NCBI GenBank assembly: GCA_963924555.1
Contig: OZ004595.1
Span: 1,054,001-1,118,000, forward strand
Length of the DNA: 64,000 bases
From: Crambe crambe
Taxonomy: Eukaryota > Porifera > Demospongiae > Poecilosclerida > Crambeidae
Direction: 5' to 3'
In this document: positions 8,250 through 41,819 of the stretch, one piece after another
Numbering within the stretch: position 1 is the first letter of the stretch
Layout: each line of letters starts with the position of its first letter
The notes under the pieces: generated by a model
Told to the model about the DNA's origin: nothing
The model's database searches: none
Seen by the model: only the letters and a program-made list of their open reading frames with translations
Made by a program: the position numbers and the translations under genes

Positions 8250-11015
8250 GTGGTCTGGTGACATACAATACAACGAGTTGTGCTGGTGGATTCTATTGCG
8301 CATGCGCGTTACTAACAGGAAGTGTCGTCGGAAGCGGTATTATAATCAGCCAGTGACATCACAGTTGTCATAGTTATTCTTAATTTAATTGGCGAGCATG
8401 ACAGGTACAATTTTAGCGTGCGTGCGAACTTACAGGAAAAGGCCCCAAGTGTGTGCGTAATTTTACGTCATTAAACGTCATTTGTGTAGCGGACTAGGAA
8501 AAGGGGTCATTTGGGAAAAAATTAAGTTTCGAGATAATTAAGGTCAAAGTTCATGATGTGCGTTATTTGGAAAATTAGCTCGTTAGAGTGCAAAATGGAA
8601 GATCTCGATGCAGACTTCTCTCTATTAGAAGAAGAATACTATGGAGAGAGATTAGAAGAGCAGGATAGTGACAATTCATGTAGTGAAAATGAAAGTTCAG
8701 GTGATGATGGGGCTGTTGGTATGATAGAACCTCGTGATTTAGATGTGAAAGAAGTAGAAACTGTGCAGCAGTTTATGAAGGAAACCTGTGGCTGTTCTAA
8801 AAAGCAAGGTGGGCCATGTAGTACCTATTTTAATGAAACAGAATTAGCTGAAATAAGAATGTCCATGGCAGAGCTTGAAAATGATCAACTGGATTTAGTG
8901 ATACTAAGTCAAATTAATGCCCACCATTATTCTGGAAGGCTTGAAGGGCATCGAACTGCCAGTGAACTATCACAAAAGTCTGAAAGAGAAAGAGATTATA
9001 CTTACTTTTTCTGCAAAGGGCACAATATTTGCTTAAAATCATTTCTCTTTATTCATAATATAGGGAAAAAACGTTTTCGTAATTTGATGAAACACTACCA
9101 GTCAAATGGCATTTGTGTTCGAACACATGGTAATGTTAGAAGACGTCCATGGAATGCATCTTCATTTGCCGATAAGGAAAGAGCTATCAAATTCATTAAT
9201 AATTTTGCGGAGATTAATGCAATTCCTCTACCGGGTAGAATGCCGAAATTCTACGACTACAATGTGATGCTTCTTCCTACCAATGTCTCCAAAGCTTCAG
9301 TGCATAGGGATTATGTGGCTTCTTGTAAAGCACTTGAAGAATTTAGTGAGCAGTCAATACGAATTTTTGGCTATAGAGAATTTTGCAGGCTATGGTCAGA
9401 AGTAGTACCGTATATTCGGGTTATGCCACCTGCTGATGATCTTTGTCATGTCTGCCAGAATAACACCACACTTATAATGAAGTCTGCAAATCTCAGTGAA
9501 GATGAGAAGAAGGAGAGACTACTTGAAGCTCAGCAGCATCTTGATTGTGCCAAAAAACAACGATCCTATTATAGAGAGAAGGTAACCTCAAGTAAATCTG
9601 CTGTGAAAGAGCTTCAGTGTGGCAAGTCAGTGATAGTTTCTCTTAGTTATAGCTTTGACCACGCTCAGCAAATTCATTACCCCAGCCACCCTCAACAACC
9701 AGGGCCTCTGTACTTCAAGACCCCACGTAAGTGTGGCATTTTTGGAGTATGTGATGAAGGCACAAACACACAATTAAATTTTTTGATCGATGAAGCTGAA
9801 TCCATTGGTAAAGGTGCTAATAGCATAGTTAGTATGGTCCATCACTATTTGAAGCATTATTCTCATGGAGAGGATATCATCTGTCTCCACGCAGATAACT
9901 GCGTGGGACAGAATAAGAATAACATTATGACCTCTTACCTTGCTTGGAGAGTTGCAATTGGCCTCAACAAATCTTGTGAATTGAGTTTCATGCTACCAGG
10001 ACATACCCGTTTTAGCCCAGATCGATTTTTTGGCTTGATCAAGAGAAGGTACAGGCGTACTGATGTATCTTCCCTTATTGAAATAGCCCAACTAGTCGAG
10101 GAGTCAACTACAGGTGGGCAGAACAAGGCATTTGTTATAGGGTCAGAGGATCCCTCAAAACCATTTCAGTATTATGATTGGGCTGGGTTTTTATCCACTT
10201 TTTTTACCCACATACCTCACATAACATCTTACCACAACTTCCTTTTTTCAAAAGATCATCCAAGTGAGGTCACTGTGCGTGAGTTTGCTGACACAGAAGA
10301 AAAGAAGATTGTGATTTTAAAAAGTGGTATTACTATTGATAAGACTGCTCTTCCTTCTGTTCTTATACCTTCTGGTTTATCTGAACAAAGAAAGAGGTAT
10401 CTCTTTGATGAAATACGACCTTTCTGTGATGAAAAGTATCAAGACGTAACCTGCCCAGAACCAAGAGTATCTAGAAAAAGATCATTGCAATCAGAAAGAG
10501 ATACTTCTAAAAAACAATCAAAGCGTCTCTGTTCTTATTGCAGAAATCCAGGACACACAAAGACTAAAAAGGGAGAAATTTCTTGCCCAAAATTGCTAAG
10601 CGAACATGAGCAATAACTAATTGAACTTTAATTCAAACATTGTATTCTTGAAAAATGAAAATTTTATTGTATAATCGCCTGGGTGATTGTAAGAAGCCCT
10701 GCAGAAGAAACAAAATGCCAACACATAACCACAGTATGGTTAATAGTTATTATAGTGGCTGGGTCACTATCTAAACTTACTACTACATGACTTAAAATCA
10801 GTAGAACTCATCCTAAGAATGACCTTTTTTAAATCTTCTTTTTGCAAAACATAAGATTAAAGATCAAAAAAGCAGATTCTAAAATAATCTCAATTTTCAT
10901 TTTTCCTCCCATATGACCCCTTTTCCTAGTCCACTACACATTTAATGATATTCATTGATTTAGCAGTTTTCCTGCTAAACGGCACAACTCGTTGTATTAT
11001 ATGTCACCAGACCAC
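8250..11015. mobile_element. Intact-looking TIR transposon nested in the P-like element's right terminal repeat
   Basis: Inverted ends: ggtctggtgacatacaatac at 8252 and gttgtattatatgtcaccag ending near 11013, continuing to acgagttgtgc / gcacaactcgt. A second, subterminal inverted pair is ggactaggaaaaggggtcat (about 8490) and atgaccccttttcctagtcc (about 10914). The element splits the right TIR of the surrounding P-like element between catagataatatagtac-type sequence (8205-8249) and agtcggtgggcggtgct (11020 onward). The exact target duplication is ambiguous by eye (a few bases, TA-containing). It carries one long ORF. Confidence 0.8.
8595..10616 (+). CDS. 673-aa transposase-like protein (DUF7869-like family, RNase-H-type core suspected)
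   Basis: The start is Met 8595 (MEDLDADFSLLEEEYYGERL); an in-frame Met at 8553 is also possible. Regions in order: an acidic N-terminus; a small Cys patch (CGCSKKQGGPCSTYF); a helical DNA-binding-like middle with RLWSEVVPYIRVMPPADDLC; a central block with FGVCDEG and CLHADNCVGQNKNN; then SFMLPGHTRFSPDRFFGLIK; and a C-terminal zinc knuckle CSYCRNPGHTKTKKG..CPK. The ADN-x-GQNKNN and GHTxFSPDxxFGxxK blocks match large families of uncharacterised proteins in invertebrates that I associate with the name DUF7869. Conserved Asp positions fit an RNase-H-like transposase, but that is inference. There is no stop or frameshift in 673 codons, so the insertion is young. Confidence 0.7.
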   Translation: MEDLDADFSLLEEEYYGERLEEQDSDNSCSENESSGDDGAVGMIEPRDLDVKEVETVQQFMKETCGCSKKQGGPCSTYFNETELAEIRMSMAELENDQLDLVILSQINAHHYSGRLEGHRTASELSQKSERERDYTYFFCKGHNICLKSFLFIHNIGKKRFRNLMKHYQSNGICVRTHGNVRRRPWNASSFADKERAIKFINNFAEINAIPLPGRMPKFYDYNVMLLPTNVSKASVHRDYVASCKALEEFSEQSIRIFGYREFCRLWSEVVPYIRVMPPADDLCHVCQNNTTLIMKSANLSEDEKKERLLEAQQHLDCAKKQRSYYREKVTSSKSAVKELQCGKSVIVSLSYSFDHAQQIHYPSHPQQPGPLYFKTPRKCGIFGVCDEGTNTQLNFLIDEAESIGKGANSIVSMVHHYLKHYSHGEDIICLHADNCVGQNKNNIMTSYLAWRVAIGLNKSCELSFMLPGHTRFSPDRFFGLIKRRYRRTDVSSLIEIAQLVEESTTGGQNKAFVIGSEDPSKPFQYYDWAGFLSTFFTHIPHITSYHNFLFSKDHPSEVTVREFADTEEKKIVILKSGITIDKTALPSVLIPSGLSEQRKRYLFDEIRPFCDEKYQDVTCPEPRVSRKRSLQSERDTSKKQSKRLCSYCRNPGHTKTKKGEISCPKLLSEHEQ

Positions 11016-13933: not shown

Positions 13934-14208
13934 CTGGTGTTTTACTCCACTAGCTAGCTAGTTCAACACATTCATTACATATGGCTACTTTGCCATACTT
14001 TAACTTTCCAGCTTGCCACACCTACCTCTTGTAAAAGCTCTATAGCATCAGATATTTCTGGGTCTTTCAGGCCATCATCTATGATCTCTTTTATCAGTTT
14101 GGGGAAGACTCTCTTGTAAAGGACTCTGTAGCCGTCCGAGTACGACTGTGAAGCGTTGGAACTCAAAGCACTTGATTCACAGCTCTGTCCAACAATACAA
14201 TCTGACAT
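11595..14208 (-). CDS. FDPS: Farnesyl diphosphate synthase, copy A, with duplicated N-terminal exons
   Basis: Condenses IPP with DMAPP/GPP to farnesyl-PP in the mevalonate pathway. Minus-strand exons (deduced): 14026-14208, 13496-13633, 13412-13436, 13278-13339, 13065-13086, 12890-13005, 12665-12742, then about 12500-12605, 12350-12445, 12230-12300, 12090-12167, 11900-12032 and 11595-11815. The first Asp-rich motif is DDFMD, with [13 protein letters not shown]. The second is [21 protein letters not shown] and [14 protein letters not shown] are also present, and the frame ends HIYKHNA-stop. Relative to copy B, about four residues are missing after INDSF. Unusually, the N-terminal helix module is present three times in tandem and in frame (see findings). 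Copy A lies 366 bp downstream of copy B's stop, in the same orientation. Confidence 0.85.
12765..12885. repeat. Three short tandem repeats in an FPPS copy A intron
   Basis: The phrase cagtcagttaaagggactta and close variants occur three times (about 12775, 12817, 12871), each preceded by gtgattagact. Confidence 0.7.
13727..13934. repeat. G-rich and C-rich tracts, MITE-like, ending in a poly-C run
   Basis: Begins caggggcagacacagaaatt followed by a G tract, and ends cctaagcaccccctcc followed by about 38 cytosines. The layout resembles short elements with 'caggggcgga.ccag' termini, as also seen near 7590 and 55745. The C run is prone to length error. Confidence 0.4.
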
Positions 14209-14573
14209 AGTCTAGCTAATTCACTTATAATAATAATCTACATCTGATTCTTTTGGGACACTTATCCTTTAAGTAGTGATTTGCACTTCCTGAAAACTGT
14301 TGGGGCATCAGTTTATTAAACAATGATGAACTCTGAACTTAGGGAAAGTACCAACCACAGATTCCCGTTATAAGGTTCATAAAGAGCAGGTAATGTACCC
14401 TTACCATTTCTTTCTATTAATACAGCAACCCATAACTCAGTTCAGTACGTGCAGCTGCAGTTAACTAGCCAGCTAATAATGTAATATCGATCATAATCTT
14501 TAGCGACCCCTTACCAGCAGCTTACATATCGCACGCGCGACAGGTTAGTGTATTTTTTTTATTGTGAAGTATT

Positions 14574-16762
14574 TCATGCATTTCTCTTATATATACGATT
14601 GGCAAATTCCAGAAACAGATCTTTCGGTAGTCCAGCCTCCACTGCCTCTTTCTCCACTAATGCAACTAGTTTCTGGTAGCTTGCTTCTTCATACTCTCTA
14701 TACGTTTGCTCCAAGTCCAGTTCTTTATAGAGGGCTTTCACACGCTTGGCACATTCAGGAGGCTCCTTGCGACCATAGTTATCCTAATATTGTAGCACAT
14801 ATCAACTGATATGATTGAAAATTATCAGTTACATACCTGAAGTAGCTGCCTCTGTTCAGGTGAAACTCTTAATAGTGCCTGGACCACCAACCAACTACAC
14901 TTGTTCTCTTCAATGTCAGTACCCACCTTCCCTGTTACTGCTGGATCGCCATAGCAATCAAGAAAGTCGTCCTAAGGGACATCCGGGTATTCTCAGTGAC
15001 ATATTCAAAATTAGTTAGCATACTTACTTGGATTTGGAAGAACTCTCCCATTTCTAACAGTATTGATTTGGCAACATCATGTGACTTCTGGTCACTAATA
15101 CCCACCTACAAATATATGGCAGTTGCATATTAAGATCTTATTCAATAGCAACAAAGAAAAAAAACTAGGAGAGAGGAGAGGAGAGATGGGGAGAGGAGGG
15201 AGAGGAGAGGAGAGATGGGGAGAGGAGGGAGAGGAGAGGAGAGATGGGGAGAGGAGGGAGAGGAGAGGAGAGATGGGGAGAGGAGGGAGAGGAGAGGAGA
15301 GATGGGGAGAGGAGGGAGAGGAGAGGAGAGATGGGGAGAGGAGGGAGAGGAGAGGAGAGATGGGGAGAGGAGAGGAGAGGAGAGATGGGGAGAGGAGGGA
15401 GAGGAGGGGAGAGATGGGGAGAGGAGAGGAGAGGAGAGATGGGGAGGGAGAGGAGGGGAGAGGAGAGGAGAGGAGAGGAGAGATGGGGAGAGGAGGGGAG
15501 GAAGGGAGAGGAGAGGAGAGGGAGTGTAACTCTTTTTCTGACCTTCATAGAGAATGAGAACTACTTAAGTATTAGTTACAGGATGTCTTACCATGTACAT
15601 GGCCAATGCCACTGGGAGATAGAAGGAATAGAATGCTGTTTTATACTTCACAATGGCATTGTATCTGAAATTAAGTGTACATACGATGAATCTAATAGAC
15701 TGAAATTTTATTTGCAGCATCTCACCTCTCAATAGAAAATCGACTGAAGTCAATGCTATCTTCTGGAGAGGTTAAAAGGTCAAGTGTTTGACCCAACTCG
15801 GTTTGATAAGTGACCTACGTATGTATGATTGTAGTGAACACACTACAGAGCACACAAGGGGTGAGACATACTTGATGGAAGAGATCCATTATGTCCACAT
15901 AGTAAGCCTCACTGCGGAAGTGTTTGCGAAGTATCTTGTAAATGGTTCCTTCCAGGCAGAAGGAATCGTTGACAGCAACAAGCCCAATGTCCTCCTACAG
16001 CCAAGAAATCTTATTAATGATTGAAAATTTGTCCAGTAATGGTCAGCTATTCCTTGAAAATGATAACTTATGCTCAGAGTCATTTTTATATTGGAAAGGA
16101 GATCATATGTCAGTCAGTTTGTGGATATGCTGGAGGACATTAGTTACCTTGAGGTACCAACATGGCTGCCCTCTCCTTGTCTTGGACTGGTCCATGATGT
16201 CGTCTGCCACAAGAAAGAAAGCTTGAAGCTGAAACAGTTAGATGATTACATGGCCTTGGGTTATTTAGATTCCCAAAGCAAACACACCACATGGGACTTA
16301 CCCATTCCACGCACCAGCCCAGTATGAGTGCCTTTCTCTCTTCCTCATTGGTCAGTTCCCTGCTGGAGGTCAGATGCTTGAGGGAACCAATCACCATCAA
16401 CCCTCGGTTGCATTTCCCTTAGAGTAAGGAAGGAATGAATGATGATTAAAACAATTGGGGACCCCCCTGCTTTCTAAGATGTTAATTAATTATTGTACAA
16501 TTAATAATTAACTCACCTCCTGGAACGTTGTAATTAAGGACCTAGATTTTAGTGATTAAAATTAAGTTTCCATTACAGCTTTCTTTACACAGACCTCTTC
16601 CAAATGTCGTACACCATCGGATACTTCCGGATCCTTTAGTCCATCCTCGGTTAGTTCTTTAACCAGCTCGGGGAATATCTGCTTAAAGAGAGGCTTGTAG
16701 CTCTCGGAGTAAGACTGGGAAACTCTGGACTTCTTAGCATTTGGTTCTTCACTTTCTTGCAT
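14574..16762 (-). CDS. FDPS: Farnesyl diphosphate synthase, copy B
   Basis: A complete-looking paralogue of copy A with the standard single N-terminal module. Deduced minus exons: 16595-16762 (start [13 protein letters not shown]), 16517-16541 (VLNYNVPGG), 16302-16427, about 16150-16230, about 15868-15995, about 15725-15815, about 15593-15672, about 15010-15112, about 14838-14974 and 14574-14785. The first Asp-rich motif VADDIMD with RRGQPCWY and the second, DDFLDCYGD, are both intact. The C-terminus is RIYKRNA-stop. Residues line up closely with animal FPPS, including the IYKILRKHF helix. Copy B keeps the segment [12 protein letters not shown] that copy A has lost. A minisatellite occupies the intron at about 15165-15530. 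This copy is the likely housekeeping enzyme. Confidence 0.9.
15165..15530. repeat. 29-bp purine minisatellite in an FPPS copy B intron
   Basis: At least seven near-perfect units of gagatggggagaggagggag plus gagga-type filler, followed by shorter variants. All purines lie on the + strand and pyrimidines on the - strand. Long open frames across it are artefacts of repetition. Confidence 0.95.
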
Positions 16763-16926
16763 CTTCTTCTTCGATCGAGTGCTGGAAAACCCCGCCCACT
16801 AGCGATCAAAGGTGATCAAAGGTCAGTCGATTTTATTAAAAATCAGGACATTCTACAATAACTGGATTCATATATATGCATACAGCCGTATCATATGACC
16901 TTCGGATCGAACTAGCAGTGTGTTCA

Positions 16927-23023: not shown

Positions 23024-25848
23024 CTAAGCAGTTCCATTCTTCATGGCCCGTATGAGAGCATCCACATCATTGTCCCTGATGGCACTCCTACAGGCATTGA
23101 TTACACGAACTTTTGCTTTACCAACTAGACAGTGTAGACAGAAAAAAAATTTAAAAAATTAATTGATATTTTTTCTAATGTATTTAAAATCTTGCCTCTC
23201 AGTTTTCCTGCCTTTTGAATCGCTTGGTTGACAGTTTTAAGACAGTCTAACAACTGCATATGATTATTGCTGCGAATCTTGTACCCAGTCATTATGTCTT
23301 TATTCATATCATAAAGCTGTGCATATGCCTTCCTCATATTACCTCTATCGAGAGACAAATTTTAAAAATTAACTGCTAAAATTAACATAATATACTCTGC
23401 TTACATGTGGTGCATCATTCTGGCATCCTCAGCACGAACTATTAAATTTCCAATCACTCCAGAATTGTCAGCCATTTCTGCAGTCAACTGCTGTCTAACT
23501 TTACGAAGTTCATCCACTTGTTTCAAAATGTTCTTCAGATCCTCCATCTGATGAGGGAAATTTGCCACTACTGCTAGATCCTGTAAAGCATTAGTAACCA
23601 TGATAACTCATCTCTCTCGTAATAATACGTATAACTTAGATAGCTTACTTCAATAGATAAGAATGAAGCTAAAGATTGTATAAGATCACCAGCTAGATCC
23701 ATATCATCTGTCTTGATAACAGTCTTTCAAGGGAATGAACAGAACAAGCATTAAAGTTATTATATGGGCTATCAGTGGGAAATTCGCTATGCCTGTTGTT
23801 TTGTCGAGTGAAAGGAAGTTGTCTACAGAGGAACCGCTCTATAGTGGCCACCATTGGGGAATGAAGTAATGAAGTTATAGAGGAGTGTTCCTATTGTTGT
23901 TATTGTTTTTTTTTGTTTTTTTTTTCAAAGTACTAGACTGAACAGTGATGCAGTCGGGACTGTGACCATAATAGGCAAGGTGGCCATTATGAGGGGTTTC
24001 ATTGTAGCTAGCTAAGGCATCATCAGTGCAAAAAATTTCCCACATCAGTAATGTAGTGTCCTACCATGCCATCCTCGGCAGGCACCATGGAAATAATGAG
24101 AGGAGTGTTGGTTCGCAAGGACATGTAGGCAAGATGAAGCTTGGGAGATGTAGCCGAACCTTCCGCAGGAGTATACAAAAAGCTTTCATTCATCCATGAT
24201 AGAACCTATAAAATTGATAAAGAAAGCCATGCAAAGTGGTGGCTAACCTCGCGAAATAATTATTGAGGTGCTGTAAACAATTATGCGCATGCGTGGAGTG
24301 GAAACGCTATTCTCTCCAGCCCCACCCCAAAGAGTGGGCGTTCATATTAGCGTTGCGCAGTGCCTACGCTGTGGTCGTGTACTGCGCAACTATAAAATGC
24401 ATGAGCTGAAGATGGCAGTGCTTAATTTTCCAACCTTTTGGAAAACAACTGGCCTAGTAACTCACCAGCACCACCACCAGAAGTTCAAGCAACGCAGCCA
24501 GCCTAAAAGTCTGAATGATCCTTCCAAGAAGATAAGTCTATCACCATGGCTATCAATAAAACCACCTACCGGCAAATGGTGCAGACTGCACTGAAAAGTT
24601 CATCAGGAGGAGCCAACGTAAAACAAATCAAGAAATATGTTTTCACTCACTTTCAAGTAAAGAAGGGATTCCAGAGTTGGGTAACTCACGTACTCAAACA
24701 GATGGTGAGGAAAGGAGAGGTTAAGAAGGTCGGTCGCGGCAAGTACTACTTGGATAAGATCCCTTCCGGGAAGCGCAGGGGCCTCAGTCGCGTGAGGAGA
24801 TCTACTTCGAGGAGGAGAAGGAAGGGGAGAAAGGGAAGGAGGAGGAGAAGAAAGGGGAGGAAATCCAGAGGGAAATCGAGGAGCCGTCGTCGTCGAAGCA
24901 GTCGTCGTCGCCGACGCAGGGGCCGAAAAAGTGGCTCAAGCACGGAAGCAGGAGAGGAGACCCCCGTAAAAACCAGAAGAAGACGCCGTTATCGACGATC
25001 GAAATCCGGCACAAGGCGCTCCAGAAGGAGAAGCAGGAAGAGGAGTGCTTCAAGTGCGAGAAGAAAGGGTGCACGTCGTGCCAGAAGACGCCGGAGGAGA
25101 TCTTCAAAACGACAAAGACGCTCTGGGAAAAGGCGAAGGAGATCCAGCAGGAAGCAAAAAAAAACCGGAACGAAAGGTCGAAGAAGGAGGATGAAACTGA
25201 AGGTAGCATGGTAACCAAGAAGAACACCTGAACTTCCCCACTTGTGACTCATGACTATTAAGTGATGACATTTTGTGATTCATTATGATTGATTTTTGAC
25301 GATATTTTGAATGGATCAGTATTCTTAAAGTGTGAATAAATGTAGTGGCTATTTAATAATAATTGCATAAAGCTTACCCTTTCAAGCCGCTCGTGGAGAT
25401 TGAAAACAACAGAGCCCTCTGGTTCTGGAGCAGCGTTCAACCCGCATGGCGTGTAGAGAGAAAAACGAGGGAGAGGTCTTGTCGCTTCGAACACGTGGAA
25501 CTGAGCGCAAGTTGGTTGACCCACATAAGCCTTAATGTTGAGGTCTAGAGGTGCATCTTTTTCATGGTAGAGTGGGACCTTGATTGTGTTGCAAGTCTTG
25601 CTGGCAATAGGATGTCTACAAAAGGAAGGGGATGCAATTTGAACCGACAAAGTGAATATTATGATTTCATTCATTGCTCACACAATATGACTCTCTCCTT
25701 CAAAGAGACTCTCGGCAAATATCACTGCAGCTCTGAGGATTGTGTCTGAATGGGATTATGGGAACTCAATATTACTGAGACATTGCTTAAATCAGACTCT
25801 TACTATTGTTAGTTTCGATGGATAGTTCTATATGAGCCTATGGTGGGA

Positions 25849-26259: not shown

Positions 26260-28222
26260 CTCATGCAATTATACCCAAATTGCACTCAAAAGCATGTGAT
26301 TACCTATACTGTAATAATAATAATAATAATAATAATAATGGCTCACAAGATTTTTCTGACCACCAGTCTCTTTTGCTGGACATGCAGTGAACTCTGTCTT
26401 GAGGAGTGTACCAGCAGGAATCATACCCATTGTATCCTCTTGCAAATTAGCACCATCCGATACTGTCATCTGAAACAAAAAAGTCACTTTCTACCTTGAT
26501 AGAGGGGTAGTAGTCTCATACTTAGAATTTAACTTACCTGCTCACTAATCTCAAAATTTTTCAACTCCATAGTTAGCTCCTGTATAAATGTATAGCTGTC
26601 AATCATTCTTGAGTGGAATTTTTCCCTTACATGTTTTTTCTTTTGTAGTTCTTCTAGTGCTCTGAATTCATCTAATTGTTGACCTGCAACTGCTGTCAAG
26701 TTTGATTCCATCAATGATGGGGGCAAGTAACCCCTGACCTCCCCATCCACAGAACAGCAAATCATTTCCTCTTTCCCACTTTGCCGGTAATCAGCCTAAA
26801 AGGGATGTGGTTGGAATAAATACACACCACTATGGCAACACGACTTTTTACAGTTGGTAAAGGGTCAGTAAAACAACAAACGAAACCCACCTGCATTAGT
26901 CCAGCAATATGTGAAGTATAGGAATCCTTGTAGATGATATTTCCAGTCTGAATGCTTCGGATGTCCAGCTTCCCACTAGACCAACCAGTGGCCAGATCAG
27001 GAATCCCATCACCAGTCATGTCATAGGCATGCATACACATTGGTTGGCTCTTGGACTAATGGGTAAAGGGTTGACTAGGTTAAAAGAGATCATGCAATCT
27101 TTGTATTCAAACTTTATATTCTTGACCTATTTATTATAAAGATCACTTCAATAAAGGTTATTGAACTAATATACCTTGACTCTAAAAAACCTCTTGTCTC
27201 CTCCATATACACCCACAATCCCATTGATGAGGGCATAAGCAAACTTGTTCTCACAGAGAGAGCACAAGCAAATCACAGGATCAGCCTCAGATAATTCTAC
27301 AATTATTAGAAAGTTGTGAGGAATAGAGAGATCTAGAGAAGGAGAAAGTTAAGTTGACCCACCTGTTAATAACTCATCATGCTGGAAAATTCTTATTTCA
27401 TAGTCTTCGGATCCAACAAGGAGTTCATTCTGTCCATCCATGTTGAAGTCCACAAGTGCAAGTGAGCACACATTGTCACCTGTCACCTATACAAAGTCAG
27501 TACATGCATATGTATTGAAAAAAAAAGCAACTTGGAAATGTGTTGCATGTGACTCACAGTCCAATACTTATCTTCACCCTCATGGTCAAAGCCATGGATA
27601 GCACAGTTTCCTCCCACTATAGCCAAAGGTTCACTTTCATTTGCTACATGCCCTATAAGAACTGCATTGGCTCCATCTGGGAGCTGATGGGCATTAAATA
27701 GAAAAAGAGTATAAAAAAAAAGTGGGCGTTTAAAAGATAAATCACATACGTACATCTTTGTAAAATAGCTCTTTGTTTTTTTCAACATCATAAGCCAACA
27801 AGTTGTTCTGTGAACCTATGACCAGGATGTCATAGCCAAGAGCAGGGTTCAAATTTCCAGCTGTCATTGCAGTGATGTGCTGTCCAAAGCTCAGTAAGGT
27901 TACATCTGATTCAATGGTGACTTTAGAGGAAGCAGTATCACCCATCCGACGGTGAGGACTATGTAAAAAAACCTTCAAGAGATAAGAGTTTAGTTAGAAA
28001 ACAAATAGAGATCACCTTTTAAGCCAATAACTGTGCAACTATATATTTTTATTTTTTGGGGGGGGTTCATAGCAACCAACATAGCAACAACGGATACTAG
28101 TTTACCTTCCCGCCATTTGTGGCTCCAGTCAGACAGGGGTACTTTCCATCATAGCTTCCCACAGTTACTAGCCTGGGAAAGACTTTTTGGTTCAGCTTAA
28201 GAGTGAAAACTGGTACAAGCAT
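23024..28222 (-). CDS. BBS2: Bardet-Biedl syndrome 2 protein homologue (BBSome subunit)
   Basis: A core BBSome subunit (beta-propeller, GAE-like and helical regions) that moves membrane proteins in cilia. Exon 1 is 28106-28222 ([18 protein letters not shown], then [15 protein letters not shown]), exactly 39 codons. Later exons read [100 protein letters not shown], then [17 protein letters not shown] (25378 onward), [14 protein letters not shown] (24205 downward), [30 protein letters not shown] and [14 protein letters not shown]. It ends MKNGTA-stop at 23024-23026. Order and spacing match animal BBS2 along the whole protein. One intron (24206-25377) contains a complete gene on the opposite strand. 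Confidence 0.95.
24388..24398 (+). promoter_or_regulatory. TATA-like box upstream of the H1-like gene
   Basis: The sequence aactataaaatg, after two GCGCA-rich words (gcgttgcgcag, tactgcgcaac), is the only good TATA match close to the H1-like ATG. Prediction by motif and position only. Confidence 0.4.
24546..25214 (+). CDS. Histone H1-like arginine-rich basic protein (protamine-like candidate), nested in a BBS2 intron
   Basis: An intronless 222-aa ORF, starting [20 protein letters not shown]. Residues about 1-75 fit a linker-histone winged helix: an '[18 protein letters not shown]' helix pair, then [17 protein letters not shown] and a VGRGKYYLD wing. From about residue 76 the chain is almost purely Arg with Ser/Gly/Lys (blocks such as [18 protein letters not shown]), interrupted once by an acidic patch, [10 protein letters not shown]. 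Somatic H1 tails are Lys/Ala/Pro-rich, so an Arg/Ser tail on an H1 fold instead resembles protamine-like sperm nuclear proteins. That role is inference. A TATA-like ctataaaat lies at 24390, about 155 bp upstream of the ATG, and aataaa occurs at 25335. The gene lies wholly within the 24206-25377 BBS2 intron, antisense to BBS2. Confidence 0.8.
   Translation: MAINKTTYRQMVQTALKSSSGGANVKQIKKYVFTHFQVKKGFQSWVTHVLKQMVRKGEVKKVGRGKYYLDKIPSGKRRGLSRVRRSTSRRRRKGRKGRRRRRKGRKSRGKSRSRRRRSSRRRRRRGRKSGSSTEAGEETPVKTRRRRRYRRSKSGTRRSRRRSRKRSASSARRKGARRARRRRRRSSKRQRRSGKRRRRSSRKQKKTGTKGRRRRMKLKVAW
25850..26340. repeat. AAT/ATT microsatellites and a short tandem duplication in a BBS2 intron
   Basis: (AAT)n at about 25852-25907, (ATT)n at about 26209-26255 and (AAT)n at about 26312-26339. 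Between them a 76-bp unit containing gcatgtgatt(a/g)c(c/t)tattagcc is present twice (about 25940-26065). Confidence 0.9.
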
Positions 28223-30136: not shown

Positions 30137-33100
30137 TCATGAATATCGACCAATTTTATATGTCTTTGGAGAAGTTTGGTGGGACCTTTTACGGCCAACA
30201 TCAGGAGAATTGCTGTCTACCTCATCAGGTAAAGGGTTGACAGAAGGACCTGCATAAGAGTACCATATACCAGTATGATAATACACACACTGAAAAATTG
30301 CTCACCTGCTGGTGTAGGCCTTGGAGGTGAAGGAGTAGTGAGGAGTTTTTCTGCAAAATAAATTTATCAAGTGTTAGTAATTTTGTCTGTGCTCACGTCA
30401 CCTTTCCTGACTTTGGAGGCAATAACCATGTGACCAGTTCTTTCAAGAGCTGTGGCCAGACTAGTCCAGCTGGGAAGACCACATTCGTTGTCTCCCCTCA
30501 ACCATGCAGCTATGACATCTTCAGGAAACATATTCATGCCTTTGAGTTTGGTGAACGACAATCCGAGAGCTATCCCCAGTCTGATCACTTCTTCTCTGTC
30601 CATGTCTTTCAAGTACTCACTAGCTGCAGGAAGAGCAGTCATCCCAAGAGAGCCAGAAGTGGCTATAAGAACATAATTAATATTTGGGCTAGTGGCACAA
30701 TTAGTGATATACCTACCTTTTGATGGTGTAGAGGGTTCTATTCCCAGCCACTGGTAGTGATGTTCTTCCAAAGCTCCACCCTTCCCAGTGTGGACTTCAC
30801 AACATCTGTAATATTTCTTTCCAAATGTTTTCTTCACACTAGCCAAGTGATAGGTAGCATATGAGTCACACGGGCAGAAGAAATTCTCACTGTACGATGC
30901 ACTACAAATGTGGCGTTTCTTCATCGATTGCTTGATGGCCTCTTTGATCCCTTGTCGTACGATTCTGCACACTTCGGGCATCATGGACGGGTCTTCTTGC
31001 ATACCTTCCTGCAGCTCCACATGAACCTCAAAGTGACTGGAGTGGTCAATAAGAGTGACCACCACTGATTCCACATTGAAGCTGATCACATTTCGGAAGA
31101 GTTGGCCTTTTTCAAACAAGAACATCCATGGAGAAGGCCATTGATTATTGCTTGAAGTCAGAAAGGCAATGGAGGAAGAAAAAAGTCCCAAGGGGGCATA
31201 CCCAGAAAATGATATGATCAGGCACGTCTTGGTTGGTCGCTGGATGAGCTTCAGATCTTTAATATCGAGCAGGGCAGGCATGAAAAAGCTATCATCATGC
31301 TCAAAACGAGTGAAAATGAGCAGGTCTTCAAAGATCTTGGCCAAAGTGCAATGATCGTAAAGATTTTGCACGAAGCCTTCGGGAAACTCTTTAAGCATGG
31401 GTAAGGTCACCCTGCCACGCATGTGGAATCTAATCCAGTCCCCTCCCACATCTGCCTCAAGTTTTGTAGGGGTTAAACCTCTCAAGCTGTAGCTTTTCTC
31501 TATCAGCTCGTTCACCTTGTTGAGGAGGATGTTGGGGTCACAGAATATGACCTCTTCGGCACACTCTGGGAAGTGTTGGATGAGGTTGAGGCTATCCAGA
31601 TGATGGATGGCAGTTCTGGCCGCAGTCTCCTTGAATAGCAGGGAAAGCTTGGCAATATCCAAACATTCTTTGAAGCTAATCACACTCTCTTCTTTCTTTT
31701 CGAGTTCCAGTTCGAGTGCGTAATACTGCAGTGGGATGGATTGGGGTTGAGGTGCAAGACGCACTATTTTGTCTCGAATATCACCGATGATCTCCTCGTC
31801 CTGCTCCTCAGGTGATTTAGCATTCAAAGGAAAGATGCACCTATTTCCATAGTAGATCAAATCTTCTGAGATGGCTGAGTCAGGATTTGGTCCTTTATGC
31901 AAGATATCCCTGAGAATCTTCTCTTTTTCATCACGTGTTTCAGAACACTTGTTCTCTTCGTCTTGATGAGTTCCCAAGACGAGAATCTTCGGACGAGTTG
32001 GGGCCTGATCCTTCAGAGGAGAAGTGGAAGGGAGGGAAGAAATGGTCTGGACACAGTGCTGGAAGATCTCCTTGTGGCTCATGGGGAAAGGATAAGGCTC
32101 ACCCAGTGGCTTTCCACCTTTGTAGTATTCAATCTGTGGCTTATCGTCCAGCCGATCTGAGAGCCTGAAGACAAAGATACCTAAAGTGGTGTTTCTGATG
32201 AAAGCTGTAAGGAGCTCGTGGAACTGAGGCTGCCCTCCACTATCTATCAGATAGATCCAAGTCATCTTCAGCAATTTACCTTCCTTGGAACGACCTATCA
32301 ACTGAAGGACGGTAGTTCTAGCTGTAGAGTAGCTTGCATCAGCAGAACTGGTCGAATGAGAACCTGATCCATTATTGGAACGACGAGATGCATGTGGAGG
32401 GGAAACAGAAGCAGTGAACTTCTCAATTCCTGAGGTTATGGCATCGGCAAGAAGTTTCATCAGTTCTTTTGGTCCGACCACTTCCCAAACTATGTTGTTT
32501 TTGAGATCTGTTGTGCCCAACCTCTGACAGTTGACCCTCTGGGCTTTCTCGACCACTCCTGTACTGTTTCGGATGAGAGAAATAGCGACACCAAGGAGAC
32601 GAGACAAAAAAAGGGATTTGCCGACTCCAGCAGCCCCCACGATCAGGACCTTGATGATGATGGTCTCAATATGGCCCCATGTCATGGCCTCGTTGAACTG
32701 AATCAGAGAAACCAGGAGAGCAATCATAGAGTTCACACCCCACATGAATGATATCTGCATACACACACCCCCGCCATTAATTACACTTACCATTTTATCT
32801 CTGGTTGCATCATCTAGACGCAAGTCACTTGATGTCGGTTCTGTAAGGTAAATCATTAGTCTTTGACTAAATGAGTCATTATGCATGTACGTAAGTAATT
32901 GTCCATGCTACTAACTGATTGATTCAAGGCCAGATAACTACGGCCAAGAATCTCAATTAAAGCACACCATTGTATGTGTACATTGCTGTCAATGGGACCA
33001 CTTATTGTGGCTTACAGTACTCACTCTGTGTTTCTTTCTGGAGAGAAGAGTCAGGCTTCTGGGAAGCAGCTGAAGAGGGGAAAAAATTATTCTTTACATA

Positions 33101-36420: not shown

Positions 36421-36735
36421 TATCTAGCTATAATAATAATGAATTTATGTCTAATTTTAATACCAAAAGTCATTCTGGCCTTTCTTTCAAATCAATCACA
36501 TAAAATTAATGTATAATGAGCAATGATAGGTACTCATAGTTATAATTACAAGGAAAAAAGTTATGAATAATTAATAACTTCCTTCCTCAGACTCTCCAAC
36601 TTCAACTCTCTGACTCTTCACTTCTTCAATACCTTCCCCTTAGCTTACTTGTACTATTCTGTGAGCTGTAGGGGCAGAATATCACTTTAACTGCCTTGAA
36701 AGGAGTGAATATTGATCTCTTTTCACAACGATTAA

Positions 36736-36826
36736 TATAATTAATGCTGCATGCGCGTGCGCATCTGTCAACGCGCCACGGTTGTGCAGTTCATTGGGCG
36801 TTTCCAATCCCGTAAAACTTCTTATA
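36736..36826 (+). repeat. 91-bp direct repeat, left copy
   Basis: Nearly identical to 41614-41704: ttaatgctgcatgcgcgtgc, gcatctgtcaacgcgccacg, gttgtgcagttcattgggcg. The pair brackets the mobile block 36942-41575. Confidence 0.9.
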
Positions 36827-36941
36827 CACCTATTTGCACATCCGTTGTCCATACGCTGGGCATATGCGCGTGCGCCACTGGCGCCTACTCGTGCACGTGA
36901 TATGCGCGTGCGCGTGCCATGCCTAGCTAGCTAGCAACAAC

Positions 36942-39210
36942 ATAGATACTATAACCTCCGGACACGGGATTGGAAACGGGCTCACGTGCGCCTATGACAA
37001 CCATTGAATTGCGCTTGCGTGCACTCCGCGTTGTAATTTTTGTTGACCGCACATAAAAAGAGAATAAAGACATCGCTCTGAAACGGATGAATAGAGCGAG
37101 CCAGTAAGAAAACAGCTTTGTCTAATACTTTATACTACTCATTTTGATACTTAAAACAAAATTTTAAACCCTAGTTCATTGATATGGCTAGTTTTTGCCG
37201 TGGTTGGTCAATTCCTGGAGAAGAAAACTGTGTGAAAGGTTTTCTGTGTTGAATTAAGCTATTTTGCATTAAATTTTCCACCAAATGGTATACATAGAGA
37301 TAAAGTTTGTTATAGAATGCTTTTTTTTCTAAGACTTGAATATTACTGGAAAAAAATCTGGGTTTTGTAAGTTCAGGAGGCCATTAATGTGTGTAATTGT
37401 GTGCTCAATTTACCAGTCTGGGAGAAGTTTACTATGAAAAATAACTAGTTGATGTTGTAGCAAAATAAAAGTAGTTTTGCATGTGCATAGTTAGAGTAGT
37501 TGACTTTTAGTGTAGGCCTTAAGTTACACATCATAAATATGCTATAACCATAAACTTTAAAACCCAATTTGGTCAACTCTGAACTGAATGCATGGATAGC
37601 TACTCCTACCTGTGACGATTTTTTTAATATATAGTGGCTAAAAGAAGAGTTTCTTGTCTATTCTTGTCTATTTGGATGGAGCATAAAAGCAAGGAAAGGG
37701 TTTTCCAAAGTTCAGAAAAAGAAAATGCTCCTTAGCCCTGAGACCTTGCTGGGTTTGAAAATGACAGGTAGCTAGAGCTTCTTGTTAGCTTGTGTTATAG
37801 TATTATCATTTATAGAATATTCTGTTTTCCATTGATGGAGTTTAAAAAAAATTGAGTGAGCACCTTCTGAAAAATTTTTTGGGTGCCAGCGACAAAGAGG
37901 TGGAACTCATGATAATCCCAGTGTCGAGGAATTTATCAACAACACTCAAGCACTATGGGTGATTAATACATTTTGCAGAGGTCCAGTTAGAGGCAATTGC
38001 AGGGCTCACAGTTCCAAGCCTGATTTGGAAAAAGAAAATGCAAAGCAGAGAATGATTTCCAAACATGAATGAATCATTATAACAAAAAAAAATGCATGCT
38101 GCATGAATTCTTGATTATTGGTGATGAGGACTTTGCACAGTCCTTTAGAACATTGGAGGGACTTTTTCGACCTCTGCTTAAAGTTTCAACCACGCACCAC
38201 CAAATGAGAACTCACTCCACCCTTCAATGATCATTTTCAGCAACTCCTTCCCAATTTCGACATTCATATCCAGTGCAACTATATATAGACCAATTCATTC
38301 ATCTCTCATTACTTCTTCCATGATTTCATCTTTTTTCCACATGATATTTCTCTAGCCTTAATTGCTCGTACAATAGTATAGCTACCTCATTTTTTAATCA
38401 ATAAAAATGTCAAACGCATCATCTATATATATAGATCTAATACAAAATACAAGCCACTTCTGTTCACATTGAGGATCCAGTTGCTGAAGATTGGACTGCT
38501 GCTTCTTCTATAGCTAGCTCTTCATCCAAAAGTTCCTCTAAACTCGATAACCACTCCATACATATTTTTTCACCAAGGACTCTGTCCTTCACAGTTCTAT
38601 AAATGTATCAAAATGGACATGCTGCTGTAACAGTAGATCCCCCATCATGTTCACCTAAAAAACCTATCAGATGATATTCTGGAAGATGGGAAATCCACCA
38701 TATTTTGGTAATGACACCAAGAATTTCTTCCACATTAAGATGAATTCATCCGATGAATAAATGCTATAATACCTTTGTTTACAGCTGACTTTAAATAGTC
38801 AGAGCTGTTTCAAGTTTGCTATGGATTAAAGCAAAACTTGAAAGCTAACATTCATTCCTGCAGTCCAGGCACCATGCATATAACTCTCTTGCAGCTTGCA
38901 GAGATGCAGAAGCGTTTGATGAAGGAAGTTTAAACCCATTATCTTCTTTTAGAATGAGTATCTCAGAATTGAGAGGGGCCTAAAAAGTGAATTACATAGC
39001 TAAAATAGCTGGATTTAAGGTTACAATCTTTGCTTACTTGTAGTTGAAGACGTTTCTCCTATAGCTTCAGCCATTATCGAAATACTTGCCTTAGCTATAT
39101 ATACTGTTTGGCAACGTCTTTGCTGACTCAGCAAACAACGCGGATTGTATCCTAAAATCTCGCGCGAATCACCCGTTTCCAATCCCGTGTCCGGAGGTTA
39201 TAGTATCTAT
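36942..39210. mobile_element. 2.3-kb non-coding TIR element
   Basis: Left end atagatactataacctccgg, right end ccggaggttatagtatctat, extending inward through acacgggattggaaacggg / cccgtttccaatcccgtgt: about 39 bp of near-perfect inverted repeat. The interior is AT-rich without any long frame, so it is non-autonomous. The target duplication is imperfect: gctagcaa occurs just left (with four extra bases) and just right. Same family as 51642-52765 and the fragment at 5165. Confidence 0.85.
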
Positions 39211-39228
39211 GCTAGCAAGCGCTGGATG

Positions 39229-40272
39229 TTTCGTGTTTGTCAATGTGACTGTGTCGTTGTAATGCAGCCAAAACCAACAGCAAGAGAATGTAACGTGTCA
39301 CTTGTAGGATCTCATCAAGCTAGAATCACTGTGAATAATGGATCTTCTTCTTCTAATACTCCACCAACTCTTACTTCAGGATTGGCATGTGCTAGAGGTG
39401 TGGTTATCACCCCACTGAACCCTCGAACTCAACCTTCTACTATTGTTCCAAAATTGCTAATAAAGGCAGTGTGCAAGTCTAGTTCCAGGAAAGACATAAC
39501 TAAAACGTTCACTCTCCGGAATATCAATTCAGATCTAGTGAAGACACGTGATCAATTGAAGCAGGTAATTAGCACACAGTTGTCTCATGACTTAACTAGT
39601 GATTTTGATGTTGGCTATTATCAAGCTTCTGTGGTAGTAAGCATTAGAAGTCCACATGATGTAATGGAGATTTGGAATGAGGTGAAGAAGGGAGTTAATG
39701 TTATCCTTTGGTGTGATGGACTTAAGGAAAGCTACCCAGCAGTAAAAAAGAGGAAACGGTCCAAGAAAAGCGTTGACTCAAACTCTGATTCTGGTGATGA
39801 TATAGTTGAAGTGTCAGCTTCTAAGAAAAAGAAATCTGACAAGGATGAAAGGCTGGAAAAAATAGTGGGTGAACTGAAGGAGTTACATGGACAACAGTAT
39901 ACTCCAATGCAGTATCGTATTTGGGGAGAAATGCTCATTGGTGGTCTGTATTCAAGCAAAAATAAATCACCAAATACCTCTATGTTTGTTAGAGCAGGTG
40001 GGAACGAACCAAAAAAGAAGTCTGAAAAATCTGATGTTGCTGAAGTGTTAGGTGAAGTTGCTAAGCATGTCTCGGCTGCATTTTCTGGAGTTGCACCCAG
40101 ACATAGCCCTAGCACTACTGCCACCACAAGTCCTGCAAAGTCAATTGATAATCGTGCTAAATGCTATAAACAGCTAGGTGAGCTAAATGATTTGAGAAGT
40201 GCTGGAGTGTTAACGGATGAAGAATATCAAAGTGAGAAAGAGGCTATCATGACAACATTAAAGAAGTTATAA
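39229..40272 (+). CDS. SHOCT-tailed protein encoded next to a transposase
   Basis: The open frame runs from 39145, but its first 28 codons lie largely in the TIR of the upstream element. The Met at 39229 (MFRVCQCDCVVV) or 39262 (MQPKPTARECNV) is a likelier start, giving about 337-347 aa. It has a central region with RKDITKTFTLRNINSD, a Lys/Asp/Ser-rich nuclear-signal-like stretch (VKKRKRSKKSVDSN, then SASKKKKSDKDERLEK), a predicted helical MQYRIWGEMLIGGLYSS, and a C-terminus LGELNDLRSAGVLTDEEYQS. This last part is a good SHOCT-like helical hairpin. The stop lies 6 bp from the stop of the convergent transposase gene, suggesting one two-gene element. The function is unknown. Confidence 0.65.
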   Translation, partial: FRVCQCDCVVVMQPKPTARECNVSLVGSHQARITVNNGSSSSNTPPTLTSGLACARGVVITPLNPRTQPSTIVPKLLIKAVCKSSSRKDITKTFTLRNINSDLVKTRDQLKQVISTQLSHDLTSDFDVGYYQASVVVSIRSPHDVMEIWNEVKKGVNVILWCDGLKESYPAVKKRKRSKKSVDSNSDSGDDIVEVSASKKKKSDKDERLEKIVGELKELHGQQYTPMQYRIWGEMLIGGLYSSKNKSPNTSMFVRAGGNEPKKKSEKSDVAEVLGEVAKHVSAAFSGVAPRHSPSTTATTSPAKSIDNRAKCYKQLGELNDLRSAGVLTDEEYQSEKEAIMTTLKKL

Positions 40273-40278
40273 TTATAG

Positions 40279-41241
40279 TTATAAGTAACCACAGTGCCTT
40301 ATAAAGTTTTGACAGTCATTTTGAGTTACCATAGTAAAAGCCATTGTAATTAAAACTCTTGGAATGTTGCTCGTTTGAAAGATGCAATCATTTTCCTTTA
40401 AGATGGTTTTAACTTTACCAAATACAGGTTCTAGTGGAGCTAGATCTGGAGAATAGGGTGGTAAAAAGAGAACTTTTGCCCCAATACTTTCAATAAGCTG
40501 TACATTGGAATGGACATGGTGAATAGATGCATTATCCATTATCACAACTGAAGCTGAGTTTATCCCATTGAAGGGCATCAGAATTGGTAGTAAATAGTTC
40601 CTGATGAAGAATCCAAACTTGTCTCCATTCACAGTACCTTCTGATAAGAATACATCATGAATACCTTGTACTGACATGACAGGTATAGCTGAGTATCTAG
40701 TGCCTCGTATCAAGATTCTGTGGTCAACAGGATGGATACCACGAACACTATAGGCATATTTCCTGGTGCTGTTTCTTCGGTCACACCCACTCTCGTCAAT
40801 CCAGACAAGCATGGATGGGTCATAAATAGATACTTCAGCCATGAATTTGGCCCGCATAGCATCTGATCGTTGTAGGGCAACATAGCGAATTGTCTGCCTT
40901 GTGCATCCCATGAATTTCAGTGTTCGACATACGGTGGATACATGAACTCTAACATGAAAAGCTTCTTGCAGTTTTCCCTGAAGTTCATGGAGATAAATGC
41001 CTGGATTACGTAGTATGAGCTGCAAAAGATGAAGTTGCTCAAAATTGCCAAGTAGTTTATGTGATCCATTTCTTCTTACTGCAGGCTTCACATCACCTGT
41101 TCTGTGGAATAGTATGAGGTACCTTCGAACTGTACGTTCTGATAAACAGAAGAGGTTACTGATTTCATGCGAGCTAAAACCGTGTACTAGATTGAACCAC
41201 ACTACCCTCCAACGTAAGTCAACGGAGTAAGGAATAGGCAT
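40279..41241 (-). CDS. Tc1/mariner (IS630)-type DD34E transposase
   Basis: 320 aa, no stops. N-terminal paired-type HTH: HGFSSHEISNLFCLSERTVR. Second HTH: GIYLHELQGKLQEAF with VSTVCRTLKFMGCTRQ. DDE_3 catalytic core: LVWIDESGCD (first Asp), VVIMDNASIHH (second Asp) and LPPYSPDLAPLEPVFGKVK (Glu). The spacing between the second Asp and the Glu is 34 residues. All catalytic residues are present and the frame is intact from MPIPYSVDLRWRVVW to the stop at 40279, so it may encode an active or recently active enzyme. Matching TIRs just outside the two-gene block were not found by eye. Confidence 0.9.
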   Translation of the reverse strand: MPIPYSVDLRWRVVWFNLVHGFSSHEISNLFCLSERTVRRYLILFHRTGDVKPAVRRNGSHKLLGNFEQLHLLQLILRNPGIYLHELQGKLQEAFHVRVHVSTVCRTLKFMGCTRQTIRYVALQRSDAMRAKFMAEVSIYDPSMLVWIDESGCDRRNSTRKYAYSVRGIHPVDHRILIRGTRYSAIPVMSVQGIHDVFLSEGTVNGDKFGFFIRNYLLPILMPFNGINSASVVIMDNASIHHVHSNVQLIESIGAKVLFLPPYSPDLAPLEPVFGKVKTILKENDCIFQTSNIPRVLITMAFTMVTQNDCQNFIRHCGYL

Positions 41242-41305
41242 CTTTTGAATTTGAATTTCGAGCCACGATTAGTGCGCATGCGTGTTTGTACTGTAGTCTG
41301 TAGAG

Positions 41306-41575
41306 ATACAGAGGTTTTAGGGAATCTTGCAAAATGCTGAGTGTGCATTCTCGCGCATGCTCAATTTTTGAGCCTCGAAAATCTCACCGGAGATGGTGAA
41401 TAGCATGCTAATAGGTTAGAACTATACTAGAACAGTCACTAGCTAGCTCTTCAAAGCTTACTTCTCTAAAGTCCTGAACAAATCTGAGCACAATTTCAAA
41501 AATTCAAGCAGTGCGCATGCGTAGTAGTCCGAGGCCTGACGACCAATTTTTGCAAGATTCCCTAAAACTTCTGTA
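41306..41575. mobile_element. 270-bp MITE with approx. 29-bp inverted ends
   Basis: Left end atacagaggttttagggaat and right end attccctaaaacttctgtat, continuing inward as cttgcaaaa / ttttgcaag. Both arms also contain gcgcatgc words. No target duplication is evident. Confidence 0.75.
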
Positions 41576-41613
41576 TGGACAAGGCCGCTGCAAAGGGGTG
41601 TATCTATGATAAT

Positions 41614-41704
41614 TATAATTAATGCTGCATGCGCGTGCGCATCTGTCAACGCGCCACGGTTGTGCAGTTCATTGGGCGTTTCCAATCCCGTAAAACCTCT
41701 TATA
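41614..41704 (+). repeat. 91-bp direct repeat, right copy
   Basis: Same unit as 36736-36826. Immediately beyond it (41716-41745) part of the unit, cccaatgaactgcacaacc, recurs in inverted orientation. Confidence 0.9.
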
Positions 41705-41819
41705 TCTATGGCTATAGTACGCCCAATGAACTGCACAACCGTATAATAGAGCTGGCTTAGGTAGATCCTGGAGGCAGCGCTGAAGAAGAAAGGAGACTAG
41801 GAGCCAGTATCGCGGTGAT

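Follow-up and report, generated by a model that had tools for sequence, protein, structure and literature searches.

What kind of protein is encoded by a small, strongly basic gene that lies antisense within an intron of BBS2? The question is raised by a stretch of 64,000 nucleotides from the demosponge Crambe crambe (assembly GCA_963924555.1, contig OZ004595.1, positions 1,054,001 to 1,118,000; hereafter the window, with positions counted from its first letter), for which a preliminary description had proposed a linker-histone fold joined to a long arginine-rich tail. We find that the nested gene is real, intact and well defined, and that it is ordinary in kind, being H1-derived and of the protamine-like (PL) type. 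By analogy with proteins of other animals, its product is probably a PL-I-like sperm nuclear basic protein that arose from a replication-independent linker histone, and a role in sperm would accord with this. Since the combination of an H1 winged helix with an arginine/lysine-rich tail is already known from the sperm of clams, wasps, a spider relative and the mullet (excerpts of PMC4584325, PMC11607694 and PMC13148410), the gene represents one more example and no missing link. Its interest lies in its position, both within the genome and, perhaps, on the tree of animals.

The reading frame and its linker-histone domain

The gene forms one frame of 222 codons without an internal stop, and is thus intronless as originally described. 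Its parts and flanking signals are the following:

24546..25214, + strand: complete single-exon coding sequence (222 amino acids, 26.8 kDa, computed pI 12.0)
24561..24740, + strand: linker-histone (H1/H5) winged helix, residues 6-65 (Pfam PF00538, PDB sequence, AlphaFold2, VIA-align, alignment with the genome's own H1)
24777..24929, + strand: arginine block A, residues 78-128 (51 residues, 6.5 kDa; 54.9% arginine, 11.8% lysine, none acidic)
24930..24974, + strand: acidic island, residues 129-143, to which the tail's 3 acidic residues (134-138) are confined
24975..25211, + strand: arginine block B, residues 144-222 (79 residues, 10.0 kDa; 45.6% arginine, 13.9% lysine, none acidic)
24284..24388, + strand: putative upstream promoter with three TGCGCA words (24284, 24354, 24383)
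24391..24397, + strand: putative TATA box TATAAAA, 155 bases 5' of the ATG, weak alone
25335..25340, + strand: polyadenylation-type signal AATAAA, 121 bases past the stop

N-terminal pieces of 67, 77 and 90 amino acids matched the Pfam family Linker_histone with E-values of 1.3e-6, 1.7e-6 and 2.2e-6 (28.9, 28.6 and 28.3 bits; cut-off 22.4), while none of ten shuffled versions of the domain did so. The full-length query of 222 amino acids returned only sub-threshold Forkhead and WIV_dom_3 matches and no Linker_histone, a miss that we would ascribe to the composition filter of HMMER. That the protein is instead a DNA-binding regulator with a basic tail from a different winged-helix family (Forkhead-like or SAMD1-like) is very unlikely, as on the isolated domain Linker_histone runs about 10 bits ahead and passes its cut-off, and Forkhead stays at least 8 bits below its own. 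The nearest PDB sequences and the nearest folds, the latter found with VIA-align, are those of H5/H1.0, and the AlphaFold2 model (mean pLDDT 75.4) places helices at residues 5-18, 25-36 and 42-56 and strands at 59-61 and 66-69. The proposed search against the H1/H5 family has therefore upheld a winged helix of this type.

The description of the H1 fold as intact, by contrast, was too strong. Aligned with the ordinary H1 of the same genome (locus L001, treated below), the domain is 28% identical, lacks two residues in the link from helix 1 to helix 2, and possesses a wing four residues shorter, in which KGSGASGSF of H1 faces a gap and GRGKY, the letters of the GASGS loop being absent. With H5 it shares 14 of 58 aligned residues. 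If the DNA-contact residues of H5 are numbered as we take them to be, two of the five mapped positions are still basic (K52 corresponds to K30, R73 to K51) and three are not (K40 is deleted, R42 is replaced by S20, K69 by T47), and two more presumed positions fall outside the alignment; as far as the alignment can tell, these losses would argue against a domain that faithfully keeps both DNA sites of H1. The absence of the GASGS loop would fit a protamine-like protein, as would an AATAAA signal without a histone stem-loop match. In the AlphaFold2 model the two strands still form a short wing hairpin; alignment and model together suggest a wing that is shortened and may not be wholly lost.

The tail, the ordinary H1 and the flanking signals

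The tail of 145 residues comprises 64 arginines (44%), 18 lysines (12%) and 23 serines (16%), so that arginine or lysine stands at 82 positions, and nine runs of three to six arginines occur in it. No SPKK-like motif was found in the tail, and no cysteine in the 222 amino acids of the protein. The arginine richness claimed for the tail is beyond chance: dinucleotide shuffles of the tail DNA (2000 in all) average 27.2 arginines and never exceed 44, and 1878 of the shuffles hold an in-frame stop. All six types of arginine codon are present, and this usage together with the shuffles led us to reject a purine microsatellite misread as protein. One further frame of the tail DNA is likewise free of stops.

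A tail with so much arginine and serine could also be the RS domain of a nuclear RNA-processing protein, all the more as winged helices are known in RNA-binding proteins too. However, the 19 RS/SR dipeptides of the tail fall slightly short of the 20.3 that shuffles contain on average, and 1405 of 2000 shuffled versions have at least as many; SRSR occurs only once beside the nine arginine runs, and neither an RNA-recognition motif (RRM) nor any other RNA-binding family is among the Pfam matches at E up to 10. An RS-type protein is therefore highly improbable, and a splicing factor of the SR/RS kind was rejected.

The ordinary H1 provides a standard of comparison from within the genome. L001 (domain at C1:478340-478555) encodes an H1 of 212 amino acids in a single open frame, scores 103.9 bits to Linker_histone and has a TATA-like word upstream. 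Its C-tail consists of 39% lysine, 20% alanine and 15% proline with no arginine among 112 residues, and a histone stem-loop lies at positions 2090-2135 of the locus (29.9 bits, E 8e-6; below the gathering score of 34). Neither mark of a replication-dependent H1, the 3' stem-loop or the lysine/alanine/proline-rich tails, is found in the nested gene: the Histone3 model found nothing between 25150 and 25450 even at an E-value of 10, and Rfam at gathering scores had no match across the window. Judged by these signatures, one genome carries an S-phase-type H1 and an arginine-rich H1 relative with AATAAA.

The same evidence bears on a somatic alternative, in which the gene would encode a replication-independent H1.0/H5-like variant of terminally differentiated or resting cells, with an arginine-enriched compacting tail and no restriction to sperm. 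H5 and H1.0 are indeed the nearest solved relatives, an AATAAA without a stem-loop match suits any replacement H1, and arginine is increased in H5 as well (excerpt of PMC4584325). Yet the GASGS loop is absent, and the tail has 64 arginines in 145 residues, whereas the C-tail of L001 has none. The arginine share of the H5 tail is also lower than that of the nested gene. We regard a somatic variant as possible but unlikely.

When the nested domain, the tail and the L001 domain were searched against the same genome, each recovered only its own locus, so that neither a recent duplicate of the genome's H1 nor a gene family was upheld. These counts are lower bounds, since the genome search with PF00538 found L001 and missed the window gene, and divergent members are thus overlooked. 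With the same limit, L001 (positions 1420-2058) is the single ordinary H1 found in the 143-Mb genome, which would be unusual if true. Among viral contigs 16 pattern matches and among prokaryotic genome contigs 121 yielded no confirmed relative, and a viral or prokaryotic relative was discarded; both collections are uninformative on animal orthologues. NCBIfam assigned no family to any of three proteins.

Around the frame, the start codon stands in the context accATGG, which is a good Kozak context, and the TATA-like box of the preliminary description is present at 24391, with an extra TATAAA word at 24207. The TGCGCA at 24284 falls, with one mismatch, within what we take to be an NRF1 motif (24284-24295). 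Because such words are common in the window (26 copies of TATAAAA and 67 of AATAAA, both strands counted), alone they prove little for the gene; the TATA, TGCGCA and AATAAA words have weight only through their order around one open frame. The absence of a working gene, with the frame either decayed or open by chance in purine-rich DNA, might explain the second stop-free frame of the tail and the failure to find a paralogue or relative in the own genome or in the viral and prokaryotic contigs. It is extremely improbable in view of the domain match, the single frame across 222 codons, an arginine count above all 2000 shuffles, the mixed arginine codons, the start context and the ordered TATA and AATAAA words.

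The BBS2 intron and the remainder of the window

The antisense position within BBS2 has been confirmed, as BBS2 exons on the reverse strand flank the forward-strand frame. A scan of ten stop-to-stop pieces of the reverse strand included eight from the BBS2 region, six of which match BBS2 families; these six are listed here with the flanking exons, the host intron and the NRF1-like sites:

25378..25615, - strand: upstream BBS2 exon, GAE domain (5' end approximate, by eye)
24206..25377, - strand: host intron, phase 0, GT-AG, 1172 bp (ends GTAAGC...TTATAG)
24065..24205, - strand: downstream BBS2 exon, platform domain (3' end approximate, by eye)
27742-27993, - strand: BBS2_N piece (family scan)
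26762-27055, - strand: BBS2_Mid piece (family scan, barely at cut-off)
25258-25677, - strand: BBS2_GAE piece (family scan)
24023-24205, - strand: BBS2_pf piece (family scan, below cut-off alone)
23401-23607 and 23125-23361, - strand: BBS2_hp pieces (family scan)
8297-8308, 24284-24295, 36752-36914 and 41273-41641: NRF1-like sites (presumed motif)

Joined at 25378/24205, the exons give one open frame with 58.6 bits to BBS2_GAE and 43.5 bits to BBS2_pf, whereas the second exon piece by itself reaches 21.0 bits for the latter family, whose cut-off is 27. The pieces 27483-27815 and 26529-26795, also on the reverse strand of the BBS2 region, had no family match in the scan, and the remaining two of the ten are a piece of myo-inositol phosphate synthase and a Roc/COR-like open reading frame. 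Counted from the TGCGCA word at 24284 through the last base of AATAAA at 25340, the nested unit occupies most of the BBS2 intron on the opposite strand.

Co-expression with a ciliary host gene, which had been considered conceivable, is without support here. No match to what we take to be the X-box motif, with up to one mismatch, lies in 24206-24545, and the RFX X-box was dropped as a sign of ciliary control. The window as a whole has 21 such matches against 12.5 expected (one of 100 shuffles reaches 21). The sole exact X-box-like match, at 23594-23607 (GTAACCATGATAAC), falls on the upstream border of an open piece that includes a BBS2 exon, away from the promoter of the nested gene.

NRF1-like sites with up to one mismatch are nine in the window, or 17 when counted by strand, against 0.08 expected from dinucleotide shuffles. 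As a clean promoter mark they were rejected, their other clusters lying in or near transposon-like open reading frames and repeats. Such sites occur in or near two same-strand repeat copies within 36682-41796, both encoding TGLETPNELHNRGALTDAHAHAALII (near 36.7 and 41.5 kb), which flank frames of 329 and 381 codons, the former resembling by eye an IS630/Tc1-type transposase. Elsewhere, an unbroken frame of 846 codons at 30367-32907 (- strand) appears to encode a ROCO-like GTPase, its matches to Roc and COR-A being weak and below threshold. A purine minisatellite at 15171-15521 (29-bp unit, 12.5 copies) has several open frames. Similar peptides of the pattern SYS..Y..L.K..FP.L.KE...DGLKDPE.SD at 13975-14211 and 16562-16798 (- strand) suggest a duplicated gene, perhaps of a prenyl-diphosphate synthase.

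Comparison with protamine-like proteins and other H1 relatives

Protamines are thought to derive from linker histones. Two features of PL proteins, a linker-histone winged helix (in the isolated domain) and an arginine/lysine-rich C-terminal region, are present in the nested gene, while its 26.8 kDa exceed the 3-10 kDa of P-type protamines (excerpt of PMC11607694), among which a cut product could qualify. If its expression followed that of PL proteins elsewhere (excerpt of PMC13148410), the protein would be made in spermatids after the end of replication, from a polyadenylated and storable mRNA, and would replace histones. The winged helix and the arginine runs would bind DNA with hardly any need of the nucleosome dyad, the tail would neutralise charge and condense DNA, and serines among the arginine runs might act as phosphorylation switches. 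The acidic island is a possible hinge or processing site, where cleavage might free an arginine-rich peptide, as is reported of PL precursors from certain molluscs and tunicates.

PL proteins are reported from molluscs, tunicates and wasps (PMC11607694, PMC13148410) and mentioned in anthozoans, Aurelia and Chironex (PMC5011920), again as excerpted. Sponges are cited as having histone-type (H-type) sperm in an excerpt of PMC10858212, whose reference range for sperm-specific H1 also includes that sponge work, so that such a sponge sperm H1 may already have been seen as a protein. Neither a sponge PL gene nor one nested in BBS2 is described in the titles and abstract openings listed, which leave the subscription literature mostly uncovered. 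The far-reaching claim, for the case that the genome is a sponge's, would be that an early-branching animal, of a phylum cited as histone-type, possesses a genuine PL protein of sperm that derives from H1, that the route from H1 to protamine (loss of the wing loop and of the stem-loop, change of the tail from lysine to arginine) was available at the root of the animals or close to it, and that the nesting within a BBSome gene is conserved and ties sperm chromatin to the construction of the flagellum; this we consider decidedly unlikely as a whole. If a single early-branching genome did hold both a PL gene and an ordinary H1, the age and the repetition of that route would become testable.

Among known systems, PL-I of Spisula and Mullus likewise joins an H1/H5 winged helix to an arginine/lysine-rich tail. 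PL-I of Mullus dispenses with the GASGS loop, a hairpin seemingly dispensable there without nucleosomes, and is polyadenylated (excerpt of PMC4584325), as the nested gene lacks GASGS and has AATAAA; PL precursors without this hairpin are also noted in the excerpted spider paper (PMC11607694). The nested gene differs from PL-I, as the latter is described, in an arginine-dominant tail on the C side only with nearly no N tail, in fewer mapped basic DNA-contact residues, in its nesting in BBS2 and in a sperm role suggested by likeness. By their description in an excerpt of PMC13148410, Nv-PL1 of Nasonia and Am-PL1 of the honeybee are comparable: Nv-PL1 has 216 amino acids against 222, and shares the N-terminal winged helix and the basic C-terminal half, although the Nasonia peptide has several cysteines where the nested-gene protein has none. 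H5/H1.0, the closest in solved sequence and fold, are set apart by their low identity to the domain (counted above for H5), by the GASGS loop and by the arginine-dominant tail of the nested gene. The ordinary H1 of the same genome, finally, shares with it the winged helix, the single open frame and a TATA-like word, but differs in its lysine-rich, arginine-free C-tail, its stem-loop and its high Linker_histone score.
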